A stretch of 62,958 nucleotides of DNA from Gammaproteobacteria bacterium. GTDB taxonomy: Bacteria > Pseudomonadota > Gammaproteobacteria > SZUA-140. The DNA lies in the NCBI GenBank assembly GCA_016218365.1, contig JACREF010000033.1:1-62958 (forward strand), in the 5' to 3' direction. Below, piece after piece: positions 12,676 through 35,936 of this stretch; the stretch's first letter is position 1; each line of letters opens with the position of its first letter. The position numbers were made by a program, and so were the translations under genes. The notes under the pieces are model-generated. The model was not told the DNA's origin. It was given only the letters and a program-made list of their open reading frames with translations, and did not search any database.

Positions 12676-13293
12676 ATGTCCCGGACTGATCCAATCATGC
12701 CCCCAGATGTTGACATCCTGTCCACCGAAACCTGTTACCAGGGATTCTTCCGCATCGACCGTTACCGTCTGCGCCATCGGCTGTTCAAGGGCGGCTGGAG
12801 CCGGCCACTGACACGTGAGGTCTTCGAGCGTGGCCATGCCGTTGCGGTCCTGCCCTATGACCCGCAACGCGATGAGGTGGTATTGATCGAACAGTTCCGC
12901 ATCGGTGCGCTGGCTGCCCATGACCACGCCTGGCTGCTGGAGATCGCGGCCGGCATCATCGAGCCCGGCGAAGACCCGCTGCACGTCGCACACCGCGAGG
13001 TGCGCGAGGAGACCGGCTGCATCATCGAGACACTGCAACCGATCTGTACCTTCTACTGCAGCCCCGGCGGCACCTCGGAAACCATCGCGCTGTATTGCGC
13101 CTGCGTCGATGCCAGCGGCTGCTCCGGCATCCATGGCCTGGCTGATGAAGGGGAAGACATCCGGGTCAGCGCCATACCATTCAGTCGCGCTGTTGAATTG
13201 CTCGAACAGGGGCGGCTCAATTCGGCCAGCATCATCATCGCCCTGCAATGGCTGATGCAGCAGCGCGATCGGCTCAGAAAAGAGTGGGGCTGA
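12676..13293 (+). CDS. nudF: ADP-ribose pyrophosphatase (Nudix)
   Basis: Hydrolyses ADP-ribose to AMP and ribose 5-phosphate. The 205 residues have a perfect Nudix box at 93-115 (Gly93, Glu99, then REVREETGC). The C-terminal half carries the NudF-type FYCSPGGTSE segment. It lies upstream of a DUF1249 gene as in E. coli nudF-yqiB, although here a 149-bp mobile element lies between them. Confidence 0.93.
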   Translation: MSRTDPIMPPDVDILSTETCYQGFFRIDRYRLRHRLFKGGWSRPLTREVFERGHAVAVLPYDPQRDEVVLIEQFRIGALAAHDHAWLLEIAAGIIEPGEDPLHVAHREVREETGCIIETLQPICTFYCSPGGTSETIALYCACVDASGCSGIHGLADEGEDIRVSAIPFSRAVELLEQGRLNSASIIIALQWLMQQRDRLRKEWG

Positions 13294-13298
13294 TTTAA

Positions 13299-13447
13299 GG
13301 AACCTCTAATCAATTCAGAGGTTCCTGCGGCACACGGATGTGCCGCCACTACCATGACAGTAGGTCATGGTAGTGAAGGAAAGTGAAAACCACGTTTTCC
13401 GCTTTCCGTACTCTGAGAATTCCAGGATGGAATTATTCAGAGCTTCC
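13299..13447 (+). mobile_element. MITE-like five-hairpin element, copy A
   Basis: This 149-bp non-coding element has near-inverted termini (GGAACCTCT at one end, AGAGCTTCC at the other). It is flanked by a 4-bp duplication TTAA (13295-13298 and 13448-13451). It folds into five consecutive hairpins: 13299-13325, 13327-13346, 13347-13375 (12-bp perfect stem), 13378-13407 and 13411-13442. A 151-bp relative lies in opposite orientation at 35057-35207. No transposase is encoded. It fills most of the 319-bp nudF/yqiB gap. Peptides read through it are repeat artefacts. Confidence 0.85.
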
Positions 13448-13612
13448 TTAAGAGTGCGCGCATGAAAACCCGTTATTGTCAACGCCGGAAAGGGACGATA
13501 TCTGCGTGAACAGCCCTGATAATCCCCTGCGGATATGCTCCCGGCCATTCAATAATAAGGCTTCTGTCCCGCTGCCCGATATAGACTATACTGGGGATAG
13601 GAGCAACGCGTC

Positions 13613-35042: not shown

Positions 35043-35427
35043 TTACTCCTTCTTCAGGAAGCTCTGAATAATTCCATCCTGGAATTCTCAGAGCACGGAA
35101 TGTGGAAAACGTCGTTTCCCCATTCCTTCATTTTCAATGACCATAGGTCATTGAAAATGAAGGCACGTCCATGTGCCGCAGGAACCTTTGAATTAATCGG
35201 AGGTTCCTTCAAAAACACCTCTGTCTCGATGTCGGCCTGCCTAAGGATAGCCCGTAGCGTCCCTTCCGGCACAGGTCGCCGGAATAGTTGGGGATTGCGG
35301 TATAGCAGTTGGTATGCGGGTTACGCCAGATCTCATGACTACCGGCCACCTGACGGTCGAATTCAAAGCCCAACTGCTTTAGCCGCTTGACGATCTCACG
35401 GTAACGAAAACCCGCCAGCCTTCCCAT
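35043..35427 (-). pseudogene. hicA: hicA toxin pseudogene, frameshifted and split by a MITE
   Basis: HicA family mRNA-interferase toxin with double-stranded RNA-binding fold. The first 50 or so codons read MGRLAGFRYREIVKRL, then FDRQVAGSHEIWRNP with the catalytic His, and TAIPNYSGDL. The frame then slips (near 35270), and the family continuation PEGTLRAILRQADIETEVFL is found in the neighbouring frame. Element B (35057-35207) interrupts the last codons. Deleting it with one target copy joins TTTTTGAA to GAAGGAGTAA and yields an ending FLKKE-stop. The gene directly follows hicB. Confidence 0.85.
35057..35207 (-). mobile_element. MITE-like five-hairpin element, copy B
   Basis: A 151-bp relative of 13299-13447 in opposite orientation, with termini GGAAGCTCT and GGTTCC and flanked by TTCA on both sides (35053-35056, 35208-35211). 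The central hairpin has an 18-bp perfect stem (35125-35142 with 35146-35163, loop ATA). Its sequence differs almost wholly from the same stem of copy A, while the end hairpin nearest hicA's stop is nearly identical. It is inserted in the hicA 3' end. No protein is encoded. Confidence 0.88.
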
Positions 35428-35780: not shown

Positions 35781-35936
35781 GATGATGGTGGGCGGCTTGA
35801 CCGCGTAGCGACCTGAGTAAGACCCGGCCAGCCTACAGAGAATGAAGGGTGGAGAAAAACAGGACTCCGGGTGTCACATACTCATCGGCAAGCTGATACG
35901 CAATCCCGCCCTATCAGCAACCATTTGGAGATCAAA

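Follow-up and report, generated by a model that had tools for sequence, protein, structure and literature searches.

Within a 62,958-nucleotide stretch of DNA from a Gammaproteobacteria bacterium (GenBank contig JACREF010000033.1, referred to in its entirety as the window), positions 13299 to 13447 form a compact series of five hairpins. The questions raised by this locus are what kind of element it represents, whether its fold is maintained, and, if so, on which strand and for what reason.

Anatomy of the two copies in the window

Two copies of the element are present in the window, in opposite orientations. Their features are as follows.

13295..13298, no strand: left target-site duplication of copy 1, TTAA
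13299..13447, + strand: element copy 1, 149 bp, five hairpins; its orientation sets the + strand of the element
13299..13325, + strand: hairpin I of copy 1, which includes GGAACCTCTAATCAATTC, the left terminal inverted repeat, together with the inverted partner of that repeat
13327..13346, + strand: hairpin II of copy 1, apex CACGGATG, with GGA at 13336-13338, fitting C-ANGGAN-G
13347..13375, + strand: hairpin III of copy 1, the central stem CACTACCATGAC/GTCATGGTAGTG
13378..13407, + strand: hairpin IV of copy 1
13411..13442, + strand: hairpin V of copy 1, apex AATTCCA-GGA-TGGAATT, with GGA at 13425-13427
13448..13451, no strand: right target-site duplication of copy 1, TTAA
35053..35056, no strand: target-site duplication of copy 2, TGAA on the element strand
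35057..35207, - strand: element copy 2, diverged, 151 bp, same five hairpins
35077..35079, - strand: GGA apex of hairpin V, copy 2
35127..35161, - strand: hairpin III of copy 2 (TTCATTTTCAATGACC/GGTCATTGAAAATGAA)
35168..35170, - strand: GGA apex of hairpin II, copy 2
35208..35211, no strand: target-site duplication of copy 2, TGAA on the element strand

The two copies align over their full lengths, with common ends and the five hairpins in one order, and each is bounded by its own 4-bp duplication. These points had been claimed in an earlier note prepared from the sequence alone, and they held, with TGAA being read on the strand of copy 2. The claim that the central stem differs at almost every base between the copies was overstated, in that ATGAC/GTCAT at the top of the stem is common to both and it is the lower half that differs. 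Intermediate arms, namely CACTACAATGAC, CATTTTCAATGAC, and CATCGTCAATGAC, occur elsewhere in the same genome, and one further copy (L016) displays chimeric central-stem arms.

Both ends of the element are embedded in hairpins, specifically I and V. The right terminal inverted repeat of copy 1 is formed by the 3' arm of hairpin V plus TTCC. Copy 1 starts with GGAACCTCTAATCAATTC, and most other copies start with GGAACCTCTGATCAATTC. When folded as RNA, either copy adopts exactly these five hairpins (z of approximately -10 with respect to dinucleotide shuffles), and DNA folding parameters return the same five for copy 1 (z of approximately -12). No match at the gathering score was found in the window with Rfam 15, and a search of six loci at E-values of up to 1 gave no credible match to the element.

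The element is 149-168 bp in length, with inverted ends and no coding capacity. The right end, ATGGAATTATTCAGAGCTTCC, is free of stop codons, and a possible open frame (MELFRAS...) extends into the flanking DNA at one locus (L022, 1521-1811). A NUDIX-domain gene (12676-13293) precedes copy 1, which begins six bases past its stop codon, and the gene for an AI-2E-family transporter starts at 35871, beyond copy 2.

Copy number, target sites, and an IS5-family partner

The earlier note described a two-copy element, and this part failed: in the genome of origin (2.26 Mb, 33 contigs), stretches of the element of 120 bp or longer occur at 21 places. Identity to copy 1 is 92-99% for most of these, copy 2 being among the diverged ones. 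Contigs C1 and C21 (first base) and C19, C23, and C26 (ends) terminate within element copies, two of them breaking at an identical base of hairpin I; the assembly is broken at the copies because the element repeats. Copies L002, L003, and L015 of the same genome have a near-identical flank, TTAATT(C/G)AAAAATTACC(A/G)CGGCCG, and therefore adjoin another repeat family.

A search of 19 further genomes from the same family did not find the element, which is carried by six other families of the class Gammaproteobacteria. A pattern scan of named genomes matched at least 113 stretches, nearly all of them from Gammaproteobacteria or a subgroup thereof and a few labeled simply Proteobacteria; the matches include Lysobacter maris, Pseudomarimonas arenosa, Rehaibacterium terrae, Halothiobacillus, and a Methylococcaceae bin. 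A covariance model made from 25 copies was run on 369 genomes of the class, 80 of which contain the element, and on 398 genomes sampled across the phylum. Of the latter, 50 are carriers, and most of these carriers fall outside the class and in one family. The element family spans two classes of the phylum. No copies were found in phages and plasmids searched by DNA similarity or in viral contigs scanned by pattern. This patchy distribution is typical of a mobile element, and the vehicle between species is unidentified.

In genome G143 there are at least 40 copies at 99-100% identity, which are interpreted as a recent burst. The copies are intergenic: according to gene positions supplied by a home-made gene caller, a long gene encloses none of the 39 copies in G143 and one of the 70 from elsewhere. 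The orientation of insertion relative to genes shows no significant bias when pooled (41 sense versus 28 antisense, p=0.15). A sense bias in the genome of origin (7 versus 1) was rejected, given that it was not significant after pooling.

Two irregular forms were also observed. The first consists of tandem arrays in which units of 109-124 bp contain hairpins II-V without a complete hairpin I (L071, 1313-2034, L072, 1766-2214, and L073, 1852-2251, all from G038; and L087 from JACQWY). The units are apparently joined at a short direct repeat common to the 3' arms of hairpins I and V, and the arrays multiply the GGA hairpins. The second is represented by L088, L089, L104, L135, and L137, where several copies in one genome share a start midway through hairpin I and have no left duplication, as if cut at the hairpin.

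Evidence for mobility is provided by the flanking DNA. A perfect 4-bp duplication surrounds 70 of 112 distinct copies with intact ends, whereas the control, consisting of the next four bases outward, yields 1 of 112. Fifty-six of the 70 duplications conform to YTAR, the published target motif of IS5 (PMC10359306). A filled and an empty TTAA site can be compared in the congeneric genomes G279 and G168, for the joined flanks of the G279 copy match 441 bp of G168 at 95% identity. A second congeneric pair, likewise at TTAA, is weaker, with a 74% match in G247 for the G131 copy. The proposal in the earlier note that the element has been mobilized thus held, the duplications being the rule and empty sites existing.

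That note had further inferred a transposase acting in trans from elsewhere, and one with matching ends is indeed present in the same genome, although the reaction itself remains inferred. The sole DDE_Tnp_1 match in the genome of origin is an intact 319-residue gene belonging to the IS5-family group NF033581 (349 bits, cut-off 140). It lies inside a 1171-bp insertion sequence (L193, genome G000) whose inverted repeats (GGAACCTCTGATTAAT) are perfect over 16 bp and which is flanked by a duplication of ATAA. The terminal repeats of the element are near-identical to those of this insertion sequence. In other genomes the ends of the insertion sequence and of the MITE carry the same unusual variants, namely CGCTGATTTAT in G279 (one base apart) and TCTGCAAAAG in G109. 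These variants are genome-specific and common to both partners, and the ends therefore appear to evolve together. In G143 a MITE directly adjoins an insertion sequence, with the same CTAA between and after the two.

Insertion sequences of the NF033581 group, identified here by way of their transposase families, thus share with the element their terminal repeats and a YTAR-type 4-bp duplication. They differ with respect to the 150-bp body: its hairpins II-IV were not detected in the end-matching insertion sequence (L193). Matches to the ends alone in G034 and G038 were considered as ends of autonomous elements and rejected, as they were not recognizable as such. The NF033581 transposase is absent from four of nine carrier genomes tested; in these, other transposases may serve, or the helper may since have been lost.

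Outside of the main group, genomes G401, G493, G490, and G383 contain the same five-hairpin body with different terminal repeats (L368-L385), namely GAGCCTGTCGCAGAAT in G401, CAGCCCGTTGATAA/GAGACTGTTGAAAA in G493, CAGGCTGTTGAAAT in G490, and GGGCACCTCGAAA in G383. Several of these copies are again flanked by 4-bp duplications, and their helper transposases are unidentified. The element is, in sum, a mobile and widespread IS5-associated MITE family, with its mobility established by anatomy and the transposase reaction inferred.

Compensatory change and the strand that retains the fold

For the analysis of covariation, 53 copies from 51 loci, approximately one per genome, were aligned to the model. 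Standard pairs occupy 96.9% of the cells over 58 base pairs, as compared to 33-45% for structures slid along the alignment. Changes on both sides are observed in 46 of the 58 pairs, and the covariation score is 0.450 versus 0.138 (sd 0.006) for shuffled alignments. All five hairpins contribute to the double changes, with stem III doing so at 13 of its 13 pairs. Because relatedness inflates counts of double changes, a purpose-written, tree-based null was employed in which the substitutions of each column were re-placed on the tree. By this measure 23 of the 58 pairs are significant at E<0.05. Among the 10,673 other column pairs 8 reach significance, the majority being either slipped partners within stem III or an extra pair closing the loop of hairpin IV.

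It could be objected that alignments fitted to a model favor that model, yet the slid and shuffled controls lie far off. In 35 held-out genomes, almost none of which belong to the class whose members were used to build the model, pairing was 92.8%, with double changes in 53 of the 58 pairs. The five-hairpin fold is conserved by compensatory change, and the covariation exceeds that expected from phylogeny under our own tree-based null. The suggestion that the folded form rather than the sequence is kept consequently held, and it applies not only to the center but to all five hairpins. The idea of a replaceable central hairpin held in part, for stem III changes pair by pair and no cassette swap was seen. 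The checks that could have refuted the earlier note, namely for excess covariation, 4-bp duplications, and empty sites, were all run and all passed, and its interpretation as a whole is supported.

Single-sided departures from Watson-Crick pairing tell the two strands apart, since what reads as G-U on one of them reads as A-C on its complement. Between lineages, G-U exceeds A-C by 78 to 35. The corresponding values are 75 and 49 in the held-out set and 45 and 30 in a smaller MAFFT alignment. Rare mutations within genomes, which mark young settled copies, give 66 G-U versus 65 A-C, a double-counted group having been excluded, and the contrast between these and the lineages (78:35) has a Fisher p value of 0.004. 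It should be kept in mind that an RNA-based model may tilt slightly to G-U in ambiguous columns. Given that the excess is found between lineages and is lacking in young copies, it follows that settled copies drift whereas spreading lineages keep the fold. The retained fold belongs to the strand shown at 13299-13447 (+).

One rival explanation dispenses with structural selection altogether: template switching during replication would copy one arm of a palindrome onto the other. In its favor are double changes even within genomes (52 events) and the chimeric arms of L016. Template switching is strand-symmetric, however, and predicts that G-U should equal A-C, contrary to the ratios of both the lineages and the held-out set. 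It also leaves unexplained the invariant GGA apices beside highly variable columns. As a full account it is unlikely, but it may still add to the double changes.

The GGA apices and possible roles of the fold

The apex of hairpin II is CANGGANG, free at its N positions only. Tree-based substitution counts along it run C 1, A 0, N 21, G 1, G 0, A 1, N 11, and G 1. In variability the first N column equals any unpaired position of the element, whereas its neighbors hardly vary. The GGA at the apex of hairpin V shows 0, 0, and 0 substitutions, with 10 and 6 in its flanks. These invariant apices had been missed in the earlier note. Hairpin V, unlike hairpin II, was part of the DNA pattern used for the named genomes; members detected solely by the model retain its GGA on differing stems. 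In the held-out set the GGA is present in 31 of 35 cases for hairpin II and in 33 of 35 for hairpin V.

High-affinity CsrA/RsmE sites are characterized by an ANGGAX hexaloop set directly on a stem, which in RsmZ is closed by C-G, with N and X variable (PMC4005645). Hairpin II matches this loop consensus in nearly all lineages, and hairpin V keeps the GGA, usually without the A at -2. There are two csrA genes in the genome of origin. The presence of csrA was rejected as a discriminator of carriers, since it is found in 71 of 73 carriers and in 31 of 34 non-carriers. Genomes G490 and G264 have 8-9 CsrA-family matches each, which is unusually many.

Constraint on the GGA is visible only with age, and a benefit to the host from each resident copy is not seen. 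Among copies at least 95% identical, four events occur in 492 GGA site-copies (approximately 4 expected) versus 73 in 8799 elsewhere, an equal rate. With only four events, moderate selection is not excluded. A looser cut of 80% identity pooled different genomes and exaggerated the constraint. These data bear on a second rival, in which the element is a regulatory RNA, a CsrA sponge, domesticated from a MITE and kept for the host. The resemblance of the GGA apices to RsmZ speaks for it, as do the tandem arrays of hairpin II-V units in one genome. Against it, young copies are unconstrained, there is no orientation bias, and congeners differ in their insertions, with empty sites. It is regarded as very unlikely.

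The best explanation overall, and the one that we consider likely, is that of a MITE mobilized in trans whose spreading lineages retain a fold. Resident IS5-family transposases would recognize the terminal repeats and insert the element at YTAR, giving rise to the 4-bp duplication, a reaction that is inferred. As shown above, settled copies drift, whereas lineages still spreading preserve the five hairpins of one strand and keep GGA exposed at the tips of II and V. The element strand may act as a folded RNA produced by read-through from neighboring genes, with CsrA/RsmA binding the GGA apices. Of the possible reasons for fold retention, such a role is the most likely, but transcription and binding are both inferred, and it could as readily prove wrong as right. 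No transcript, promoter, or CsrA binding has been observed, and the benefit to the element is likewise inferred.

The main alternative, and a possible one, is that the fold works not as RNA but as single-stranded DNA or a cruciform in replication or transposition, where hairpins on one template strand would help the transposase to reach or pair the ends. Several observations agree with this. Constraint on spreading lineages and not on the youngest copies is as expected of a propagation trait, both element ends sit in hairpins, the DNA parameters reproduce the same fold, and a G-T excess is equally expected for one DNA strand. On the other hand, such a hairpin set was not found in the end-sharing insertion sequence (L193), and the exact C-A-N-G-G-A-N-G pattern is unaccounted for.

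The folded-RNA reading can be put more boldly, namely that the element is a transposable CsrA/RsmA-binding RNA with IS-type ends that differ by lineage. Spread of the mini-transposon would then depend on a folded RNA docking a global regulator at two GGA hairpins. On present evidence we lean slightly against this version. A separate possibility, repression of the transposase mRNA by CsrA with relief by the MITE, was dropped after the examination of one leader (L193, with two GGA sites), because GGA sites overlap any ribosome-binding site; most other leaders are unresolved.

Comparison with known systems was made, in the case of Correia/NEMIS and RUP, by published description only and without direct alignment. 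The Correia/NEMIS MITEs of Neisseria are likewise short intergenic repeats for which action of a stem-loop at the RNA level has been proposed, and most bacterial repeat elements are described as single stem-loops formed by pairing of the 5' and 3' ends (PMC2229807). The present element differs in having five separate hairpins with both ends inside hairpins, in its ends and target, and in its occurrence in two classes. For RUP of Streptococcus pneumoniae, associated with IS630-Spn1, mobilization in trans was similarly inferred from matching terminal repeats and target. The element described here has instead an IS5-family partner, a YTAR target, and a conserved multi-hairpin fold, whereas no other signature of structure or function has been reported for RUP. 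Small RNAs of the RsmZ/CsrB type, which sequester CsrA/RsmE, resemble the element in their A(N)GGAX loops on stems closed by C-G; RsmZ contains 127 nt with four stem-loops and a terminator (PMC4005645). These are single-locus RNAs, whereas the element is transposable, bears GGA at two apices, and lacks any known promoter or terminator. It was not described in the literature searched, most subscription papers lying outside that search, and within those bounds it is judged to be a new MITE family with an unusual conserved fold.

Bacterial MITEs are usually viewed as ends plus filler. In this family the filler keeps one fold across two classes while the stem sequences, and sometimes the terminal repeats, change. 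The family constitutes a large natural data set with which selection for folding can be separated from palindrome correction, by means of the contrast between G-U and A-C and between old and young mutations. It also renders testable the notions that selfish DNA may promote its own spread by means of a functional structure, whether of RNA or of single-stranded DNA, and that a selfish element may exploit CsrA.
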